From an uncultured Pelagibacteraceae bacterium (lineage in GTDB: Bacteria > Pseudomonadota > Alphaproteobacteria > Pelagibacterales > Pelagibacteraceae), in contig CACAHE010000008.1 in NCBI GenBank assembly GCA_902532195.1, positions 1 to 40,075 on the forward strand: a DNA stretch of 40,075 nucleotides. Direction: 5' to 3'. Numbering within the stretch: the first letter of the stretch is position 1; each line of letters starts with the position of its first letter. This document shows positions 14,742 to 32,111 of this stretch, piece by piece. The notes below the pieces were generated by a model. It saw only the letters and a list, made by a program, of their open reading frames with translations. It was not told the DNA's origin and did not search any database. A program made the translations under genes and the position numbers.

Positions 14742-15512
14742 ATGATAAAACCTTTTATAGTATTTGATAATAATAAATTTTCAAAAAAAGTAAGATCTTA
14801 TTTAATAAAAAAATTTAAAAAATTTTCTATTAATAACTCCAATTTAATTATTGTTATAGGCGGAGATGGCTTTATGCTTCAAACTTTAAAAAATTTTTAC
14901 AAGTATAATATTCCTTTTTATGGAATAAATTCTGGAAGCTATGGTTTTTTAATGAATAAATTTTCAGCAAAAAATACATTCAAGAACTTATTTAAAGCTA
15001 AGATGATAATTATTTCTCCTTTACAAATGACAGTAAGAAATAGATCAGGATTTATAAAAAAATCTATAGCAATTAATGAAATATCTATTCTTAGACAGAG
15101 TAGACAGGCCGCTTCTATATCTATTTTAAATAAATCAAATATAATTATAAAAAAACTAGTTTCAGATGGAGTCCTGATCTCAACTCCTGCAGGTAGTACT
15201 GCATACAACCTATCTGTTCATGGTCCTATTTTAAGTTTAGATTCTAAAAAACTATCTATTTCACCAATTAGTCCTTTTAGACCAAGAAGATGGAAAGGAA
15301 AAGTAGTAAGTGAAAATTCTAAAATTTTAATTAAAAATTTAAACGTTATTAAAAGACCCATAAGTGCTGTTGCAGATAATGTGGAAGTAAGAAATGCTAA
15401 ATCAATTTTAGTAAAAACTAATAAAAAAATTAAATTTAAATTACTTTACGATAAAAATAGAAGTTTACAAAAAAAAATTAAAATTGAGCAATTAAGAAAA
15501 GAGATAAATTAG
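14742..15512 (+). CDS. nadK: NAD kinase
   Basis: The 256-residue protein phosphorylates NAD to NADP. It has the GGDG catalytic motif (IIVIGGDGFMLQTL), the second motif GINSGSYGFLMN, and the SDGVLISTPAGSTAYNLS segment with the conserved Gly-rich loop. Length is typical for alphaproteobacterial NAD kinases. The ATG lies 5 bases after the tRNA-Leu CCA end, leaving no room for a Shine-Dalgarno site once the tRNA is cut out. The TAG stop (15510-15512) directly abuts the first tRNA-Thr 3' fragment (from 15513), so the gene marks the left, chromosomal edge of the accessory island. Confidence 0.95.
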   Translation: MIKPFIVFDNNKFSKKVRSYLIKKFKKFSINNSNLIIVIGGDGFMLQTLKNFYKYNIPFYGINSGSYGFLMNKFSAKNTFKNLFKAKMIIISPLQMTVRNRSGFIKKSIAINEISILRQSRQAASISILNKSNIIIKKLVSDGVLISTPAGSTAYNLSVHGPILSLDSKKLSISPISPFRPRRWKGKVVSENSKILIKNLNVIKRPISAVADNVEVRNAKSILVKTNKKIKFKLLYDKNRSLQKKIKIEQLRKEIN

Positions 15513-15566
15513 TGGTGCCCCCGCACGGATTCGAACCGCGGACCTATTGATTACAAATCAATTGCT
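15513..15566 (-). repeat. tRNA-Thr 3'-half copy 1: putative attachment site at the left island edge
   Basis: These 54 bp match the intact tRNA-Thr (22723-22776) from the CCA end to just past the anticodon stem, with one mismatch (GGATTC here, GGACTC in the intact gene). The match stops at TTGCT, and the D-arm and 5' acceptor strand are missing, so it cannot fold into a tRNA. A displaced 3' fragment at the far edge of foreign DNA is the classic mark of site-specific integration into a tRNA gene. It abuts the nadK stop codon. Confidence 0.88.
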
Positions 15567-15618
15567 AAAAGTTAAATAAACATTTGTTTGCAACAATAAT
15601 CCTAAAATATTTTTAACT

Positions 15619-15638
15619 TGGCAACAATCTGACAACAA
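15619..15638 (+). repeat. Cassette 1 left-end direct repeats (11-bp spacing)
   Basis: Two units, TGGCAACAA (15619-15627) and TGACAACAA (15630-15638), begin 11 bp apart, about one helical turn. They lie about 53 bp inside the left tRNA-Thr fragment. The same unit recurs three times near the right end of the cassette in the same orientation. A looser TTGCAACAA-like unit occurs at about 15589-15597. The layout resembles arm-type integrase binding sites. Confidence 0.7.
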
Positions 15639-16231
15639 TGGTAGTGTTTTTTATGGAAAAGAAAAAGAAGTATAAACCAAAAGGACCTATTCAAATTTTA
15701 GCAGCTATTGGATTAGTGATAGCAATATTGTGGACAGCGAAAGGCTTGTTTCAATTCGGAAGCGCTGGTTATAAAGAAGTTACCAGCTCTAAGTCTAATT
15801 ATAAAATAATTACATTAACAAAATGCTATATAACTGACTTACAAGAGACAAATGGTAAGGAAGTGTATTCTTATAAAAATTGGAAGGAACAAACTCTGGA
15901 TAAAAGAATTGAATATGAAAATAAACTTTATACGCTAGATACCGTGACAGAAGTCATAACGCAAACTACTGTTTTTAAAGATACACATTTAAAAAGAATG
16001 AGAGAGAACAATCTATTTTTAAAAAAACACTCAAAAGTAATCTTTAAGATTGTTGACCTAGGAGGTAATGTTGCAACAGCAGAAGATACTGACCTAGGCA
16101 AATGGTTCAAAAAAAATACTATCGATGTGGATTTTAAAACAAATCAAGTTTACAGATATTCTGAAGCTGATTTTGGAAGTGGAAATCTTTTTAAGACTGC
16201 AACCACCGAACAATGTCAAAGACAAAAATAG
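15638..16231 (+). CDS. Unknown single-pass membrane protein, cassette 1 cargo
   Basis: I do not recognise this protein. The 197 residues (192 from the second Met, codon at 15653, which I find equally likely) begin with a Lys-rich cytoplasmic tail (MEKKKKYKPKGP), then one hydrophobic helix (IQILAAIGLVIAILW, about residues 18-33), then a soluble domain of about 155 residues that should face the periplasm. That domain has no Cys-rich or catalytic motif I can name. The first ATG begins on the last base of the left-end repeat. It is the only gene of cassette 1. A role in surface exclusion or stress is imaginable, but nothing in the sequence shows it. Confidence 0.7.
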   Translation: MVVFFMEKKKKYKPKGPIQILAAIGLVIAILWTAKGLFQFGSAGYKEVTSSKSNYKIITLTKCYITDLQETNGKEVYSYKNWKEQTLDKRIEYENKLYTLDTVTEVITQTTVFKDTHLKRMRENNLFLKKHSKVIFKIVDLGGNVATAEDTDLGKWFKKNTIDVDFKTNQVYRYSEADFGSGNLFKTATTEQCQRQK

Positions 16232-16293
16232 ATTAGATATCAAACTATTGTAATAAGAATGCTGATGCTCCCAATTAAAACGACTACTTGATT

Positions 16294-16324
16294 TGACAAC
16301 AAACTGACAACAATCTGACAACAC
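16294..16324 (+). repeat. Cassette 1 right-end direct repeats (three units, 11-bp spacing)
   Basis: TGACAACAA at 16294-16302 and 16305-16313, and TGACAACAC at 16316-16324, are spaced exactly 11 bp apart and face the same way as the two left-end units. They lie 57 bp before the second tRNA-Thr fragment. The set overlaps the foot of a possible hairpin at 16320-16346 (AACAC...GTGTT arms, one bulge), which might end the transcript of the cargo gene. Confidence 0.75.
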
Positions 16325-16380
16325 TTATTGTCGTCATAATAGTGTTTGCATAAATAATTTTGATGAAAAAGTAAGTTAGA

Positions 16381-16429
16381 TGGTGCCCCCGCACGGATTC
16401 GAACCGCGGACCTATTGATTACAAATCAA
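16381..16429 (-). repeat. tRNA-Thr 3'-half copy 2: putative attachment site between cassettes
   Basis: These 49 bp are identical to copy 1 and differ by one base from the intact tRNA-Thr. Identity ends exactly after the anticodon stem (TTGATTACAAATCAA then AGAG). The internal position shows that two separate elements inserted at the same tRNA, one after the other. It is a tRNA remnant and cannot be a working gene. Confidence 0.88.
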
Positions 16430-16503
16430 AGAGCTTCTTAAAATATCCTTTCATTAACGTTGATATTATTAACTTCTAGAATCCCCGTCAAGCAAAGATA
16501 AAA

Positions 16504-16524
16504 AATTCACTTACAATTCACTTA
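16504..16524 (+). repeat. Cassette 2 left-end direct repeats (11-bp spacing)
   Basis: Two identical units AATTCACTTA at 16504-16513 and 16515-16524, 11 bp apart, lie 75 bp inside tRNA-Thr fragment copy 2. The same pair recurs at the right end (22599-22619) in the same orientation. The sequence is unrelated to the cassette 1 repeats although the spacing is the same. Confidence 0.75.
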
Positions 16525-19500
16525 TGTTAATTTATGATTTAAATTATATTTATTTAAATAAATTAGAGATGACAACAGTTATTACATCTAGAAATTATGA
16601 TAAAGAAGTTCTTAATATCATAAATAATATCATTCCAGGTTGTAAAAATATTTATATTAGAGTTGGTTATTTTTATTTTTCTGGTTTTTCACTAATAGCA
16701 AAAACTCTTAAAGATAAAAATATTAAAATATTAGTTGGAATGGAAGCAGATAGAACAACTAATGATTATTTAAGAAAATTTTCAGAAACAGTAGATAAAG
16801 ATGAAATTTTAGATAAACCAGAGGAAAGAGATGCATATTTTGTTTTTAAAAATAAATTAAGAGATGGTTCTTTAGAGGTTAGACAAAATAAAACACCAGA
16901 TCATTCAAAAGTTTTTATATTTGAATATACAGATAAAAATTCTAAGATTTTTAATGGTCCAGGCCAAACTCTGGTAGGCTCTTCAAATTTGTCTAATTCA
17001 GGATTTATTAACAATACTGAAACTAATGTTCTTTTACCTAGCCCAGATAATTTTAAAGATTTAAGTCTTAATTTTAATGATGATTGGGAAAATTCTACAA
17101 GATTATTAGATAAGAAAAATTTCAAAGATTTTGAAAAATATTCAAAAAAATTTCCATTTGAACAAAAACCGAGTCCATATTTAATGTTCGTACGAGTTTT
17201 AAATGAATTCTTTAAAGACCGAAGTGAAAATCGAATAAAGTTACCCAAAGATATTACTGATGATTATTTTGAAAATTTTAAATATCAAAAAGATGCTATT
17301 TCAAAAGGTCTAGATATTCTTAATGATCACAATGGAGTTTTGATAGCGGATGTAGTCGGACTGGGAAAAAGTATAATTGCTTCAGCAATTGCGAATAACT
17401 TAGGCTTAAGAACAATTGTAATTTGTCCGCCTCACTTAAAAGATCAGTGGAAAGACTACTTATTTAAATTTAAAGTAAGAGGTGCAAGAGTATATACATC
17501 AGGAAAAATTTTAGATGCATTAAAAGAAGATACACCAGGACAAAAACTAATAATAATTGATGAGGTACATAAGTTTAGAAATGATGAGACTAAAGATTAC
17601 TTAAATCTTTATCAATTATGTCATGATACAAATGGCAAAGAGGCAAACAAAATTGTTTTATTATCTGCTACTCCTTTTAATAATAAGCCAAGTGATACAT
17701 TCAGTTTAATCAAATTATTTCAAATACCAACAAGGTCAACACTTCAAACTATTACTAATTTGTCAGTATATTTTGAAAGAATAAATAAAACATATAACAG
17801 TTTAAAGCGAGAGCAGAGTAAAAATAAACGAAGTATAAATGATATTAATCATGATTTTAAAAAGCTAGGTGAAGAAATTAGAAATATCATTTCACCATTA
17901 ATAATTAGAAGATCCAGAATAGATTTAGAAAATATTAAAGCTTATAAAGATGATTTAAGGAAACAAGGTATATTTTTTCCTCGTGTCGAAGATCCTGTTT
18001 TATTGTCCTATGATTTAGGGGAAATTGAAAATATTTATATTGAAACTTTAAAGATTATTTCTCCTGGGAATGAGAAAAGTAGTTTTAAATGTGCCAGATA
18101 TAAACCTCTAACATATGTCAAGCCAGAATGTTTGAATGAAGTGCTTGATGCAGGAGGTTATAATGATGAAGAAAAAAAAAATAAGCTACCCCAACAACAA
18201 CAAAATATTCATGATTTTATTAAACGCATGATGGTAAGAAGGTTTGAGAGTAGCACTAACTCATTTTCTATAACATTGGGTAGAGTAATTAGATCAAATG
18301 AAAGATTAATAGAATATTATGAAAAAAAGGGAGTTGTTCCAGTTTATCCAAGGCACCAATTACCAGATTTAGAAGAATTATACGGAACAGAAGACGATGT
18401 CCAAATTGATGATTTTGATATTGAACATGAGTCAAAAATAAAAAAACTAGAAAATAAAGGATTGTGGTTTATTAAAAAAAATCAACTAAATAAAAACTAT
18501 ATTATCGATATCAAGAACGATTTAAGTGTTTTAAGATCTATTCAAGAGGATTGGAAAATTTTGAAGAAAAAAAATTTTAAAGATCCTAAAATCAATACTT
18601 TTAAAAAGATAATAGCTAATCAAATAAAAAAAGATCCTAAAAGAAAAATAATCATCTTTACAGAATTTTCAGATACTGCAAATTATTTATTTGATAATAT
18701 TAAGCAAGATTTTAAGGTTAATGTTTATACTTCAAAAGAATCCTCTAATAAGAAAAAAAAAATTGAAATAGCAGAAAATTTTGATGCTTCAAACAAAAAT
18801 CAAAAAAATAATTATCAAATATTAATTGCTACAGATGCAATATCTGAAGGCTTTAATTTACATAGAGCAGGGTCAATCTTCAATTATGATATTCCATATA
18901 ATCCTACAAGAGTTGTTCAAAGATTTGGCCGTATCAATAGAATTAATAAAAAGATGTTCGATAAACTTTACATTTATAATTTTTTTCCAACTGAGATTGG
19001 TGAAACTGAAGTTAAAATAAAAGGTATAACAGGTCTAAAAAAAATGATGTTTAATGCAATATTCGGTGAAGATACAAAGGTATTAACAACAAATGAGGAT
19101 CTAAAAAGTTATTTCCAAAAAGAGTTTAGTGATATTTATAAAGAAACAGAATCTCCAGAGACTTACTTTGAAAATATGATTTATGATTTAAGAAGTTATG
19201 AACCTCAAATAATAATTGAATCAAATAACATTTCAAAAAGAGTTAAAGCCAAAAGAAAGATCAAAGACAAAAATGGTTTGATTATTTTTTCAAAAAAAGG
19301 AGACATACCTCGATTTGTTTTTGCTGATAAAAATGAGAAAGTATTAGATATAACACCAATTGATGCTCTTAAAATATTTGAAGCAAAACCAAATGAAAAA
19401 CATATAAGTTTCGATAGGAGATATGATTTACTTTATGAAAGAATTAAATCTCAGATCTTTGCCGATAAAAAAATTTTACCACCTAATAAAAAGAAAAAAG

Positions 19501-19769
19501 ATTTAATTAATAAATTAGAATTATTGTCTAGAGAAAGTAGATATACAGACTATTATTCAAAATTATATATTGTGGTTAAAGAATTAGATGCCTTAACACC
19601 AATGCAGTTAAAAACTATAAAAAAAATCACATTAAAATCTTGTGATAAGAATATTAAAAATATTATGGAAATAATTCCTGAAAGATTGCTAGTAAATCTA
19701 ATAAAAACTTATAATGAAATTGAATTAAAAAAAGATGCCTTAATAATTACTGAGCAAATTAATGATTGA
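16524..19769 (+). CDS. Phospholipase D-like nuclease / SF2 (SNF2-type) helicase fusion, probable defence or restriction subunit
   Basis: The 1081-residue protein has two parts. Residues 1-200 form a PLD-like domain with one HKD-type site: H127-S-K129 (in TPDHSKVFIFE) and GSSN at 152-155, so two copies would be needed for one active site. From about 255 follows an SF2 helicase: Walker A GLGKS 279-283, DEVH 346-349, SAT 381-383, then a C-terminal RecA lobe with IIIFTEFSDTANYLF, IATDAISEGFNLH and QRFGRINR 799-806, the last resembling SNF2-like and restriction-type helicases. It probably translocates on DNA with ATP and cleaves it. The next gene, a DNA methyltransferase, overlaps by 8 bp. A later start at ATG 16569 (MTTVITSRNYDKEV) is as likely as 16524, which begins on the last base of the left repeat. 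Confidence 0.85.
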   Translation: MLIYDLNYIYLNKLEMTTVITSRNYDKEVLNIINNIIPGCKNIYIRVGYFYFSGFSLIAKTLKDKNIKILVGMEADRTTNDYLRKFSETVDKDEILDKPEERDAYFVFKNKLRDGSLEVRQNKTPDHSKVFIFEYTDKNSKIFNGPGQTLVGSSNLSNSGFINNTETNVLLPSPDNFKDLSLNFNDDWENSTRLLDKKNFKDFEKYSKKFPFEQKPSPYLMFVRVLNEFFKDRSENRIKLPKDITDDYFENFKYQKDAISKGLDILNDHNGVLIADVVGLGKSIIASAIANNLGLRTIVICPPHLKDQWKDYLFKFKVRGARVYTSGKILDALKEDTPGQKLIIIDEVHKFRNDETKDYLNLYQLCHDTNGKEANKIVLLSATPFNNKPSDTFSLIKLFQIPTRSTLQTITNLSVYFERINKTYNSLKREQSKNKRSINDINHDFKKLGEEIRNIISPLIIRRSRIDLENIKAYKDDLRKQGIFFPRVEDPVLLSYDLGEIENIYIETLKIISPGNEKSSFKCARYKPLTYVKPECLNEVLDAGGYNDEEKKNKLPQQQQNIHDFIKRMMVRRFESSTNSFSITLGRVIRSNERLIEYYEKKGVVPVYPRHQLPDLEELYGTEDDVQIDDFDIEHESKIKKLENKGLWFIKKNQLNKNYIIDIKNDLSVLRSIQEDWKILKKKNFKDPKINTFKKIIANQIKKDPKRKIIIFTEFSDTANYLFDNIKQDFKVNVYTSKESSNKKKKIEIAENFDASNKNQKNNYQILIATDAISEGFNLHRAGSIFNYDIPYNPTRVVQRFGRINRINKKMFDKLYIYNFFPTEIGETEVKIKGITGLKKMMFNAIFGEDTKVLTTNEDLKSYFQKEFSDIYKETESPETYFENMIYDLRSYEPQIIIESNNISKRVKAKRKIKDKNGLIIFSKKGDIPRFVFADKNEKVLDITPIDALKIFEAKPNEKHISFDRRYDLLYERIKSQIFADKKILPPNKKKKDLINKLELLSRESRYTDYYSKLYIVVKELDALTPMQLKTIKKITLKSCDKNIKNIMEIIPERLLVNLIKTYNEIELKKDALIITEQIND

Positions 19770-22599
19770 TTTTTCATTAAATTATTCAAAAGAGGATTTT
19801 AAAGATTTTCTAAAAGATTTTTTACCAAATGATTATAAAGAAAATAAGGTAGGGCTAGATATAGATGACAAAAACTCCTTTTTCAAAAATGCAGAAATAA
19901 TCGGTTCTGTAAATTCACTTGATAAATTAGTGGTTCTTGAAGTTGAAAGATTTAAAGCAGAAAAAAGTAGAATTAAGATCACTAAAGAATTGTTTAAATT
20001 TTTAGAGTTACATGGTTATAAAAATGCTTTAGTAATAACTTTTTCAGAAAAAGAAAAACACTATCGTTTGTCATTTATAAAGAGTGAATTGGTGTGGGTT
20101 ACTGATACAAAGGTAAAAAAACAATTTTCAAACCCCAAAAGATTATCCTTTTTATTAGGACCTGAGGCCAAAATTCACACTCCTACTAAACAATTAATAA
20201 AACTTGGAAAGATAAAAAGTTTTGATGATTTATATGAAAGATTTAATAATGAAATTGTTTCAGAAGAATTTTTTCAGAATTATAAAAAATTATATTTTAA
20301 ATTAATTGAACATATTGAAAAAGATAAAAGCCACAAAACTATAATTAATAAAAATAATTTAAGTTCAAGTTTATTTGCTACAAAAATCATGGGTCAGATT
20401 TTATTTTCTTATTTTATTCAAGAAAAAAAATGGCTTGGTGCAAATGAAAAAGATAAAATTTTTAATGGTGATATAAAATATCTAAGAAATACATTTTCAG
20501 AAATAGAAAAAACTAAAAATTACTATAATGAATTCCTTGAATATCTTTTTTATGATGGATTTAATACAAAAAATAAGGATGATTACGTAAAGTCATTACA
20601 ATGCAAAGTACCCTTTTTAAATGGTGGGCTTTTTGCACCATTGAAAGGATATGAGTGGAAAAATGAAGTTTTAAACATACCAAATTCATTTTTTTCAAAT
20701 TCAGATGAGGATGGAATTTTAGATATCTTTGATTTGTATAATTTTACTATCAATGAGACGGATCCAGTAGATAAAGAAATTGGTATAGATCCAGAAATGC
20801 TAGGAAAAGTTTTTGAACGTCTCATAGACGTAGATGGAGTAGTGTATACCCCTAAGATAGTTGTAAAAAATATGTGTGATAATGTTCTTATTCAATACTT
20901 AGTAAATAATAAACAAGATTTAAAACTATCTACTGAAACCATTAAACAGCTGATTAAAGAAAGATTTATAGAAAAAGATTCAGGGTTGTATAAAGAATTG
21001 AAAATTTCTTATCAAAAACTTGATCAAAAATTAAAACAAATAAAAATAATCGATCCAGCTGTTGGATCTGGTCAATTTACTACAGGTATGATGTCCTTGA
21101 TATGTGAAATTCGTGAAAAATTAAATATATTCTTCGAACATGATAGGAAAATGTTTCAACTTAAAAAAAATTGTATTCAAAATTCAATTTATGGAGTTGA
21201 TATCATTGATAGTTCTGTCGAAATTACAAAGCTCCGACTTTGGTTATCTTTGATTGTAGATGAGCGTAGAATTGAAAATGTATCTACATTGCCTAATCTA
21301 GATTATAAGATATATCAGTGTGACTCATTAATTTTTTCAGAAGTAAATATATTTAATAAAAGTCTACTAGATAAATTTAATTCGTTAAAAATAAATCTCT
21401 ATAATGAAGATAATAATGAAAAAGTTAATGAATTAAAAAAATCATTAATTTTAACAATGGATGAAATAATAACTTCACACGATAACATTGGTATTGAAAT
21501 TATTTTTAATGAGGTATTTTCTGGTAGTGATCCTGGATTTGATGTTATCATAGGAAATCCCCCTTACGTTTCAGCTGTAGATAGAAAAAGATCAGATGGA
21601 TTAAAGGATTATTATAAAAAATTTTATCCTGAAGCCACGGGATCATATGATGACTTCGTTCTTTTTTTGTTAAGAGGTTTATCAATTTTAAACTCAAATG
21701 GCGTTTATTCTTGGATAATTAAAAATACATTTCTCTCAGCTGATTATTCATCAAAAACAAAAGAAAAATTAATAAACAAAGGTGGGTTATATCAATCGCT
21801 AGATATCTCACATGAAGATGTTTTTCATAAGATTGGCGTATATCCTATTATAGTTAACGGCAATTTAAAAAATGAATCTAAAGATTTTCAAGAGCTTGAT
21901 GTAGGTAGTTTTGAAAATTTAGAAAATGAGATTTTTACTAAAGTTAAAAAATTAAAGGAATATTCTTCATTTAGAGATTTTAAAATTAAACTATTTACAG
22001 GCACTACCGGTTTTGCAGCTAACTCAATTATAAAATTAATAGAAACAAAAAGTAATGAAAATAATATTCCATTTATTGTTAGTGGTAATGTCGATAAATA
22101 TAAATACGATAATAAAAACGTTAGATATATGGGTGAGACTTATAACAAGGCATATCTAAAGATTAAGAGTCAAAAAATTTTAGCAGACCAGAAGATTAAT
22201 TTTTTTAAATCACCTAAAATTGTTATAGCTGGAATGACCAAAGAAATAGAGGCGGTATATATTAAAAAACCTATAGCATTAGGTGTGGGGATTTTCGGTA
22301 TTTATGAATTTTCTGGTTATGATCCATATTTTTTAACTGGTCTTTTAAACAGCAAATTTATATCTAGTTACATGCTTAAAAAATTTAAAGACAAGCATCT
22401 AGCAGGCGGATATATATCAATTACAAAAAGTGTAATCGAAAAACTCCCATTCATAATGATTAAAAAATCTGATCAAGATTATATTTCTGAAAGATCTAAA
22501 TATATTCATAATCATATAAATGAGTTAGAAAAAAAAGATATCAATAGTGTTTTAAAAAAAAGAGATGAAATTGACAAAAAAGTTATAAGTCTTTTTTAA
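19762..22599 (+). CDS. Eco57I-like (type IIG-type) adenine-N6 DNA methyltransferase with degenerate N-terminal nuclease-like region
   Basis: The 945-residue protein has SAM motif I DPAVGSG at 431-437 and the catalytic NPPY at 599-602, defining an N6-adenine DNA methyltransferase. The C-terminus (FLTGLLNSKFISSYML...GGYISITKSVIEKLPF) resembles a TaqI-type target-recognition domain. Residues about 45-130 (IIGSVNSLDKLVVLEVERFK...YKNALVITF) resemble the PD-(D/E)XK nuclease found at the start of type IIG enzymes, but the expected E-x-K reads E60-V61-E62. It starts inside the helicase gene's end (ATGATTGA, 8-bp overlap), so the two are translationally coupled. It likely marks host DNA against the helicase-nuclease; the recognition site is unknown. 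Its stop overlaps the right-end repeat. Confidence 0.87.
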   Translation: MIDFSLNYSKEDFKDFLKDFLPNDYKENKVGLDIDDKNSFFKNAEIIGSVNSLDKLVVLEVERFKAEKSRIKITKELFKFLELHGYKNALVITFSEKEKHYRLSFIKSELVWVTDTKVKKQFSNPKRLSFLLGPEAKIHTPTKQLIKLGKIKSFDDLYERFNNEIVSEEFFQNYKKLYFKLIEHIEKDKSHKTIINKNNLSSSLFATKIMGQILFSYFIQEKKWLGANEKDKIFNGDIKYLRNTFSEIEKTKNYYNEFLEYLFYDGFNTKNKDDYVKSLQCKVPFLNGGLFAPLKGYEWKNEVLNIPNSFFSNSDEDGILDIFDLYNFTINETDPVDKEIGIDPEMLGKVFERLIDVDGVVYTPKIVVKNMCDNVLIQYLVNNKQDLKLSTETIKQLIKERFIEKDSGLYKELKISYQKLDQKLKQIKIIDPAVGSGQFTTGMMSLICEIREKLNIFFEHDRKMFQLKKNCIQNSIYGVDIIDSSVEITKLRLWLSLIVDERRIENVSTLPNLDYKIYQCDSLIFSEVNIFNKSLLDKFNSLKINLYNEDNNEKVNELKKSLILTMDEIITSHDNIGIEIIFNEVFSGSDPGFDVIIGNPPYVSAVDRKRSDGLKDYYKKFYPEATGSYDDFVLFLLRGLSILNSNGVYSWIIKNTFLSADYSSKTKEKLINKGGLYQSLDISHEDVFHKIGVYPIIVNGNLKNESKDFQELDVGSFENLENEIFTKVKKLKEYSSFRDFKIKLFTGTTGFAANSIIKLIETKSNENNIPFIVSGNVDKYKYDNKNVRYMGETYNKAYLKIKSQKILADQKINFFKSPKIVIAGMTKEIEAVYIKKPIALGVGIFGIYEFSGYDPYFLTGLLNSKFISSYMLKKFKDKHLAGGYISITKSVIEKLPFIMIKKSDQDYISERSKYIHNHINELEKKDINSVLKKRDEIDKKVISLF

Positions 22600-22619
22600 A
22601 TTCACTTAATATTCACTTA
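22599..22619 (+). repeat. Cassette 2 right-end direct repeats (11-bp spacing)
   Basis: AATTCACTTA at 22599-22608 and TATTCACTTA at 22610-22619 repeat the left-end pair with the same orientation and spacing. They begin on the last base of the methyltransferase stop codon and lie 104 bp before the tRNA-Thr CCA end. Confidence 0.75.
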
Positions 22620-22722
22620 CCTTAATTATATCCCCTTCCTTTCTGTAGTCTTAATCAATAACTTTAAGTTTTAAAAAAATTTGAATAAATTTAGTATTTA
22701 TTGAAAATAAATGAGGTTTTGA

Positions 22723-22798
22723 TGGTGCCCCCGCACGGACTCGAACCGCGGACCTATTGATTACAAATCAATTGCTCTACCAGCTGAGCTACAAGGGC
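22723..22798 (-). tRNA. tRNA-Thr (anticodon UGU), integration target
   Basis: A complete 76-base tRNA with encoded CCA on the minus strand. Acceptor strands GCCCTTG and CGGGGGC pair with two G-U wobbles; the anticodon stem ATTGA/TCAAT encloses TTTGTAA (anticodon TGT); the T-loop reads TTCGAGT. The 3' half (22723-22776) is the block copied at 15513 and 16381, each with T-loop TTCGAAT instead. It lies 32 bp downstream of rlmB on the same strand and may be processed from that transcript. Confidence 0.97.
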
Positions 22799-31000: not shown

Positions 31001-32111
31001 TAAAAAAATTAAAAATATAAATGAAGGAGAAAAATTAAACCAAAATAATATAGAAGAGTTAAATATTTCAGATATATTTAAATTGTCTATAAATGATACT
31101 AAAAAAAATGAGGCCTTATCTCAATTAAAAGACCAATATAATTCAGCTAAAAAAGACATACAGGAAAGATTTGAAGACAAAGTATTAAAAATCAGACAAG
31201 GTGATGATTTGCTTCCAAGTGTAATGAAGATGGTCAAAGTCTTTGTTGCTATAAAAAGAAGATTAAGACCAGGGGATAAAATGTCAGGAAGACATGGCAA
31301 CAAAGGTGTTGTTAGTAAAATAGTACCTGTTGAAGACATGCCATATCAAGAAAATGGAAAACCTGTTGATATTGTTTTAAATCCTTTAGGGGTTCCCAGT
31401 AGAATGAACGTTGGTCAAATTTTAGAAACACATTTGGGATGGTCCTGCACAGAATTAGGCGAAACACTAAAAGAACTAGTTAATGAAAATCAAAAGAAAA
31501 TAAACAAAACAGAAAAAATAATTTCATTTTTAAAATCAATTTATGGCAAAGATATATATGACGAAAAAATTGAAAATCTTTCTACATCTGAATTCAGCGA
31601 TTTATGCCAAAATATTCAAAATGGAATTCCTATAGCAACCCCAGTTTTTGATGGAGCTAAAGAACAAGATGTTACAAAAATGCTTCAATTAGCAAAATTA
31701 CCTAGTACTGGTCAAACATACTTGTGGGATGGTAGAACAGGAGAAAGATTTGATAGACCTGTGACAGTTGGAACTATTTATATGCTTAAACTTCATCACT
31801 TAGTTGAAGACAAAATACATGCCAGATCTACAGGACCTTACAGTCTAGTAACACAGCAACCTTTAGGTGGTAAAGCACAATTAGGAGGACAAAGATTTGG
31901 TGAAATGGAAGTATGGGCACTTGAAGCATATGGAGCTTCATACACCCTTCAAGAAATTTTAACTGTTAAATCAGATGATGTTGCTGGAAGAGTTAAAGTT
32001 TATGAAACAATTGTTAAAGGAGATGAAAACTTTGAATCTGGTATCCCTGAGTCATTTAACGTACTAGTGAAAGAAATTAAATCATTAGCACTTAATGTGG
32101 AGTTAAATTAA
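28029..32111 (+). CDS. rpoB: DNA-directed RNA polymerase subunit beta
   Basis: The 1360-residue beta subunit is complete. The rifampicin-binding cluster reads [20 protein letters not shown] then [10 protein letters not shown] (around residues 515-545), with the Asp, His and Ser associated with drug sensitivity retained. [33 protein letters not shown] and [14 protein letters not shown] are further signature blocks, and the C-terminus contains [17 protein letters not shown]. It pairs with rpoC, which begins 2 bp after the stop. Confidence 0.98.

Follow-up and report, generated by a model that had tools for sequence, protein, structure and literature searches.

Cis-mobilizable elements (CIMEs) are flanked by attL and attR sites, lack integration genes and can lie in tandem at a single site; in the part of that source available to us, as for all papers cited here, they are described as decayed integrative and conjugative elements or integrative and mobilizable elements that are mobile in cis after accretion (PMC5704250). 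Prophages are seemingly rare in Pelagibacterales (PMC7771536), which makes the exchange of accessory genes in SAR11 bacteria of interest. Here we analysed a stretch of 40,075 nucleotides from an uncultured Pelagibacteraceae bacterium (contig CACAHE010000008.1, positions 1 to 40,075, assembly GCA_902532195.1), hereafter the window, in which two cassettes lie in tandem next to a tRNA-Thr gene. Both retain attL and attR copies and lack an integrase gene, so that their flanked, integrase-less, tandem layout resembles that of CIMEs. Near both of its ends each cassette carries short direct repeats with a spacing of 11 bp, which the initial annotation read as candidate arm-type sites of two different integrases. 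Our analysis of sequence data makes it likely that these repeats are arm-type sites that mark the cassettes for tyrosine integrases, which would be supplied in trans by satellite-like elements using the same tRNA-Thr core.

The cassette 2 motif, WATTCACTTA, was indeed present at 16504, 16515, 22599 and 22610. The motif given for cassette 1, TGRCAACAA, was present at 15619, 15630, 16294 and 16305 but not at 16316, where the copy is TGACAACAC (8/9 letters). In both cassettes successive copies are spaced by 11 bp in a single orientation (+ strand), as claimed, and the distances between repeats and cores (~53–57 bp on both sides of cassette 1, 75 and 104 bp in cassette 2) lie within the proposed 53–104 bp. 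The motifs also proved enriched over shuffled sequence: the best left-right tandem matches, 15/16 and 16/16 for the two cassettes, were reached in none of the 3,000 order-1 shuffles and in none of the 3,000 random window pairs per cassette. Nor are the motifs equally common elsewhere in the genome, an outcome that had been named as one that would speak against arm sites; their tandem forms are confined to the cassette ends. In the genome assembly of the window (973,691 bases, 77.6% complete), tandem ATTCACTTA occurs at two places, both of them cassette 2 ends, and tandem TGRCAACAA..TGACAACA at three, which are the one pair and one triple at the cassette 1 ends. Outside the cassette ends, a single TGRCAACAA (at 31295) and a single ATTCACTTA in reverse orientation (at 2340) occur in the 40-kb window, both non-tandem. 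The reversed-pattern control for ATTCACTTA was void because this motif is identical when read backwards.

The tRNA-Thr site was surveyed in 100 loci, the window and 99 from same-genus genomes (among the loci given L numbers below), which were unevenly sampled and in several cases fragmentary. Loci were picked from part of the listed matches (345 of 349 genomes match) and from motif or left-box hits, so the frequencies are biased towards filled sites. Among the 86 scorable loci (14 were not), 33 were empty, with the NAD kinase end 4–20 bp from tRNA-Thr, and 53 were filled, 28 of the latter containing at least one further tRNA core. We tabulated 50 core-to-core elements, including the two of the window and the integrase-bearing L080 and L212; those with weak cores (L060:6400, L087:15187, L150 and L155:10156) and L130, which spans NAD kinase, were kept. 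Profiles of both integrase families described below, run on 132 reading frames of at least 80 aa, detected no integrase in 48 of these 50 elements and matched only L080 and L212. In L130, a core with a class-1 left end (position 626) lies before NAD kinase, and the NAD kinase–tRNA-Thr site itself is empty.

The cassettes fall into two classes, both of which have tandem repeats after a left box and again, at the right, just before the next core. Class 1, to which cassette 1 and most others belong, has the left box AACAWWTGTTTRCAACAATAA, found in 17 of 348 same-genus genomes (reversed control, 0), or a left end that is related but has another box. Class 2 consists of cassette 2, L064, L095:12885, L085 and L087, and its left box is built around TTTCATTAACGTTGAT or a variant. 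The class-1 arm motifs are TGACAACA, CTGCAACA, GACCACA with GTCCACA, CGACACA, GTCACA, ATACACA, GGTAACA with GGTAGCA, and GTCCGCA; those of class 2 are TTCACTTA, TTCACTTCA and AAGACTACA. Related cassettes at the same site thus bear such repeats, whose absence there had been the other outcome named against the arm reading; L095:12885–18994, for example, combines the TTCACTTA arms of cassette 2 with a different cargo. As in arm-type sites, these are repeated short sequences near the core inside both ends. The class-1 left box AACATTTGTTTGCAACAATAA may be a site for another factor, such as an excisionase or a bending protein.

Arms at the two ends of an element match each other. In 40 elements the mean own-end match was 13.75/16 compared with 10.87/16 for foreign ends, and 0 of 20,000 permutations reached the observed value (largest permuted mean, 12.18). 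The same held for class 1 alone (n = 33; 0 of 20,000), while for class 2 with its two integrase-bearing members (n = 7) 16 of 20,000 permutations did so. The own right end was the best or a tied match in 22/40 elements. Because left and right ends are mutually non-homologous, shared descent alone does not explain their like motifs.

Integrase-bearing islands at tRNA-Thr with such end repeats, the check proposed with the initial annotation, were found for both classes, which lends support to the arm-type reading and to two integrase families, one per cassette class, using one tRNA core. On the class-2 side they are P4-like. L080 is a 7.7-kb element at tRNA-Thr that encodes a primase-helicase-like protein and a 451-aa integrase (PF13356 plus PF00589), whose N-terminal PF13356 arm-binding domain also gave a profile match to the CP4-like N-domain 3jtz. 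Its relatives L208, L209, L211 and L212 likewise lie at tRNA-Thr. All five have arms with a spacing of 11 bp: TTGACTACA in L080, CGACTACA in L208 and L209, and CTCACTACA in the other two. Matched arms occupy both ends of L080 and L212, which also have a repeated tRNA core. The right ends of class-2 cassettes align with the integrase-bearing right ends across the arms and the following box. L209 is a Pelagibacter-like integrase element on a contig filed under a Flavobacteriales metagenome-assembled genome, probably a binning error, and an integrase near the site in L087 was assigned, by reading, to another place. Scans of viral contigs for P4-like integrases, for TTCACTTA arms and for the class-1 and class-2 left ends yielded nothing. 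Among named phage records there was no match to the L080 integrase or to the core, and among named plasmid records the integrase matched one plasmid integrase at 24% identity.

The class-1 counterparts, L242 and L246, encode a short lambda-like integrase. L242, located through the tRNA-Thr core, is a viral contig of 8.9 kb with a GC content of 0.30; it encodes an integrase, a TerS-like protein and an AAA_25 protein, and its attP-like core is flanked on either side by GTCCGCA repeats. It was the only one of 24 hits of the 34-bp core in viral contigs with an attP-like core and arms on both sides; 22 others are complete tRNA genes without repeats and one lies at a contig edge. No capsid gene was found among the L242 proteins scanned (seven in one scan, six in another). 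Its motif recurs in the integrase-less cassette L097:18197–18961, where the left copy is one base off. L242:6292–6990 and the integrase-less cassette L060:9161–9628 have a cargo gene in common (31% identity, E 1e-24). L246, which follows what reads as the NAD kinase end and lies in the tRNA-Thr core, carries two copies of CTGCAACA, which is also the right-end motif of L089, L120 and L123, three cassettes without integrase.

This second integrase family comprised 4,495 proteins at E ≤0.001 among 6,594 candidates, of which the best 120 were listed. It is represented in same-genus genomes by 18 loci, with a recognisable start in 16. A tandem pair lies just upstream of the integrase start in 15 of these 16 genes, as an exact 7-base pair at 11 bp in 11 and at 12 bp in four; the 15 include near-identical loci (L247/L250, L249/L251/L256 and the four with 12 bp). 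The background frequency of pairs at 11 bp is 1.6% in stretches drawn at random from these loci and 0.5% in shuffles. At the far end, a repeated tRNA core (54–60 bp) with the tandem motif before it was seen in L263 (tRNA-Asn, by reading; GGTCGCA), L266 and L268 (tRNA-Met; TGTCACA) and L270 (TGATCACA). The match is less exact at the far ends of L265 and L267, L271 has a mixed array, L264 has only an inverted second pair with no second core found, and L269 is too short to follow. Thus, in the integrase elements L080, L212, L242, L263, L266, L268 and L270, the same type of site flanks the core on both sides.

In viral contigs carrying the cassette 1 motif, an A1- or A2-like integrase lay within 600 bp in 3 of 52 loci; by itself the motif is thus no guide to a helper. 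Three such contigs (L033, L047 and L049) have a TGACAACA pair spaced by 11 bp that lies 26 bp before a 444-aa reading frame, and other phage contigs also contain arrays of the TGACAACA motif. A search of viral contigs with the L242 integrase retrieved L242 itself only. Against phage records this integrase gave 324 matches, all below 60% identity, the ten matches listed being at 37%, and L242 DNA had no match among named phage records.

No Pfam arm domain was detected in the L242 integrase, and its putative arm-binding domain is assigned from the strands and helix of a predicted model: strands at residues 3–7, 10–17 and 20–27 and a helix at 30–46. The predicted local distance difference test score is 86–92 in blocks over residues 1–40 and the predicted template modelling (TM) score 0.51 overall; among PDB structures, the full model most closely matches lambda integrase (1z1b, E 1.6e-10, TM 0.54). 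In a set of 40 relatives, from which near-duplicates and one odd row were removed, residues 5, 8, 12 and 14, the predicted arm-reading residues within the first two strands and their turn, were hypervariable, with entropies of 2.57, 2.45, 3.00 and 2.11 bits beside the invariant R16 and H20. Mean column identity within the family is 75%; positions of equal variability also lie in other parts of the protein, and variability peaks at residue 166. Where Glu at position 14 occurs with an arm pair (L242 and L245) the arms end in CGCA, and where Gln, Ile or Trp occupies it they end in CACA or AACA. Outside this pattern are L262 (Ser, GGCGTCA), the L252 clade (Val, GTACTCA) and L253, which has Glu and no pair. 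In so small a set, the apparent correspondence between residue 14 and arm ending is only a hint.

Several cargo protein pairs are 95–100% identical across elements of different genomes (one genome per species), and others 27–79%. Nine pairs picked from these were compared as DNA, eight of them with at least one host gene for comparison. In six of these eight, cargo DNA was 90–96% identical compared with 73–83% in nadK or rlmB: both host genes gave 73–83% for L075/L122, L089/L093, L096/L155 and L096/L125, and nadK alone gave 75.3% for L094/L097 and 74.3% for L095/L096. The cargo of L085/L087, a pair without a host gene for comparison, is 96% identical (97–100% per 100 columns), and most differences between these elements cluster near the arms, where a ~44-bp indel precedes the right ones. 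L089 and L093 are 94% identical over the whole element and 73–77% in host genes, and all three right arms have changed together (CTGCAACA in L089, TGACAACA in L093). Such near-identical cassettes in diverged hosts have, most simply, moved without an integrase of their own.

These comparisons bear on whether the cassettes are immobile relics, formerly integrase-bearing elements whose genes were deleted and whose arms and cores were left behind as in a CIME that is no longer moved. Although the 48 elements without integrase, the homology of class-2 right ends to integrase-bearing right ends and the loss of core or arms at some sites are what decay would leave, it does not account for near-identical elements in hosts as diverged as those of L089 and L093; moreover, decay should affect each arm separately, whereas the arms of the left and right ends match and the three right arms of this pair changed in concert. 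We regard relics as improbable. Slightly less probable still is spread mainly by homologous recombination at the tRNA cores or flanks after DNA uptake, with arms that are idle now. End swaps are visible, as in L075/L122, whose DNA is ~90% identical from directly after the left arms (CGACACA in L075, TGACAACA in L122) to the end of the first cargo gene and whose left ends are unrelated. However, the flanking host genes are only 73–83% identical, and without a binding partner the 11-bp layout and left-right identity would hardly be maintained. That the repeats instead bind something else, such as a cargo operator or activator protein, a replication factor at an iteron or a host DNA-bending protein, is very unlikely: left repeats do directly precede the first gene, both in cassettes and in integrase elements of the second family, and an arm may well serve as an operator too, but right repeats sit between the last gene and the core, neighbouring cassettes of one genome differ in motif in a way not explained by one host protein, and similar cargo is found with different motifs.

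Several observations weigh against arm-type sites served in trans. We infer arm binding, excision and the supply of integrase in trans from sequence. No integrase with exact TTCACTTA or TGACAACA arms was found, the nearest, each different at a few bases, being CTCACTACA (L211 and L212) and CTGCAACA (L246), respectively. Both helper families are rare, the P4-like one occurring in 3 of 399 genomes and the second in only 18 of 399, each with one clearly at tRNA-Thr; neither was found in the window genome (77.6% complete), which has one unclassified PF00589 hit. Arms of L208, L209 and L211 were seen at the integrase side only, the four loci with 12-bp pairs (L252, L254, L257 and L258; GTACTCA) form one clade, no tandem pair precedes the L253 integrase, and L255 and L260 have no recognisable integrase start. 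An extra core was not found at 25 of the 53 filled sites. In the permutation test, 10 of the 50 elements were omitted because one end had no tandem window, a foreign right end matched better in 18 of the 40 elements, a few elements, among them L097:18197 at only 4/16, scored low because the chosen windows differ in register, and a CACA or AACA tail is common to many arm motifs. Cargo identity was also only 82% in L090/L096 and 81% in L151/L159.

If the repeats are arm-type sites, the N-terminal domain of the integrase would read the arm motif while its core-binding and catalytic parts would act on the tRNA core, and arm and integrase must therefore match. Class 1 (cassette 1 and its kin) would be moved by lambda-like integrases of ~328 aa, exemplified by L242 and L246, and class 2 (cassette 2 and its kin) by P4/CP4-like integrases (Arm-DNA-bind_3) such as those of L080, L208, L209, L211 and L212. 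As these integrases would be supplied by satellite-like elements, the cassettes could be mobile despite encoding no such enzyme; packaging with the satellite or its helper phage as the route between cells is a guess. Drift or selection acting on reading residues and arms could give rise to many separate integrase-cassette groups at one landing site. A wider model, which we consider as apt to be wrong as right, is that SAR11 has an arm-coded cassette system in which the arm is an address label read in trans, compatibility groups are served by satellite integrases whose reading residues evolve fast, and defence and surface-protein cargo can switch labels by end exchange or by concerted change of arms.

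Feature coordinates are collected below. The cassette 1 cargo protein had no Pfam or PADLOC match. An inverted arm copy, TGTCGTCA, lies 5 bp beyond the final right repeat of cassette 1 (16329–16336), and something alike was seen, by reading, at ~17 of 51 right ends. A spacing of 5 bp was seen at 11 of 51 right ends, one of them chance-like, and other spacings at 0–7; covariation of the inverted copy with the arms was rejected, as L242 and L263 have the same box and different arms.

Table 1. Features of the tRNA-Thr site and its two cassettes in the window.
Feature	Position	Strand	Remark
NAD kinase-like gene, left host anchor	14742..15512	+	name from reading of sequence
Core 1, copy of tRNA-Thr 3' part including anticodon stem-loop and TTGCT	15513..15566		
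Left-end box AACATTTGTTTGCAACAATAA, common to several, not all, class-1 arm groups	15579..15599	+	
Cassette 1 left arm repeat 1, TGGCAACAA	15619..15627	+	
Cassette 1 left arm repeat 2, TGACAACAA	15630..15638	+	
Cassette 1 cargo gene	15653..16231	+	listed open reading frame start 15638; ATG at 15653 probably the start
Cassette 1 right arm repeat 1, TGACAACAA	16294..16302	+	
Cassette 1 right arm repeat 2, TGACAACAA	16305..16313	+	
Cassette 1 right arm repeat 3, TGACAACAC	16316..16324	+	8/9 letters
Inverted arm copy, - strand reading TGACGACA	16329..16336	-	5 bp past repeat 3
Core 2, tRNA-Thr 3' part copy between both cassettes	16381..16429		
Cassette 2 left arm repeat 1, AATTCACTTA	16504..16513	+	
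Cassette 2 left arm repeat 2, AATTCACTTA	16515..16524	+	
PLD-like and SNF2-type helicase protein, defence-like, cassette 2 cargo	16524..19769	+	PADLOC HKD+Snf2 3.6e-36
Eco57I / type IIG restriction-methyltransferase-like protein, cassette 2 cargo	19762..22599	+	PADLOC REase_MTase_IIG 1.2e-91
Cassette 2 right arm repeat 1	22599..22608	+	
Cassette 2 right arm repeat 2	22610..22619	+	
Cassette 2 right end box, alignable with L080, L208, L209, L211 and L212 right ends	22620..22722		
Intact tRNA-Thr(TGT), integration target	22723..22798	-	

Cargo was scanned in 76 of 108 listed frames. Class 1 carries small cargo genes, and a pilin-type N-terminal motif was found in 13 of the 76 scanned proteins; one cassette (L097:12786–16528) contains a run of six pilin-like genes, almost identical at the N-terminus and broken by a single gene of another kind. 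Different restriction-like proteins are encoded in L064 and L095, and two cargo proteins, probably those of L085 and L087, matched an autotransporter domain. No conjugation family appeared among the 25 listed of 45 Pfam families in the 76 proteins, and no helper element lies in tandem in the window.

If arms are addresses, a cassette free of mobility genes could be assigned to its helper from ~20 bp, the reading residues of that helper could be compared with the motif, and the helper dependence of small cassettes with defence or surface genes would become testable from sequence data. The arm groups would also provide a naturally varied set in which to study DNA recognition by the arm-binding domain of an integrase. 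Our literature searches found no paper, in the parts available, on arm motifs of integrase-less SAR11 cassettes.

Compared with CIMEs, the cassettes here are many and small and differ in arm motif by group; our scans gave no sign of conjugation ancestry, and the ends of class-2 cassettes are akin to those of satellite-like elements. In the Dehalococcoides ssrA-specific islands, of which 16 of 31 have an integration module, islands likewise lie in tandem at one RNA gene; these use a serine recombinase, however, and arm-site classes are not described in the available part of that source (PMC3146451). The additive flexible genomic islands of streamlined aquatic bacteria are also cassettes at tRNA genes with repeated tRNA ends, although arm sites, integrase links and integrase-less classes are not described in the accessible portions of those reports (PMC7771536, PMC10872708). 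With lambda- and Tn916-type integrases, the lambda-like integrases described here share arm sites near the core and, by prediction, the N-terminal fold, which in the Tn916-group arm-binding domain consists of three strands and a helix (PMC8138268); unlike in those systems, arms here occur on elements without integrase, and the predicted reading residues are highly variable. L242 and L080 resemble marine phage satellites, virion-encapsidated integrative mobile elements (VEIMEs), tycheposons and phage-inducible chromosomal minimalist islands (PICMIs) in combining an integrase with replication-type genes (PMC11389934). The window cassettes, unlike these, contain neither a tyrosine recombinase of their own, as in tycheposons, nor integrase, replication or packaging-related genes, as in phage satellites, and would depend on such elements. 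In this respect they are akin to integron cassettes and clusters of attC sites lacking integron integrases (CALINs), integrase-less cargo that is also moved by an integrase encoded elsewhere (PMC11389934), whereas here a tRNA gene serves as landing site and a tRNA fragment, accompanied by lambda-like arms, as core.

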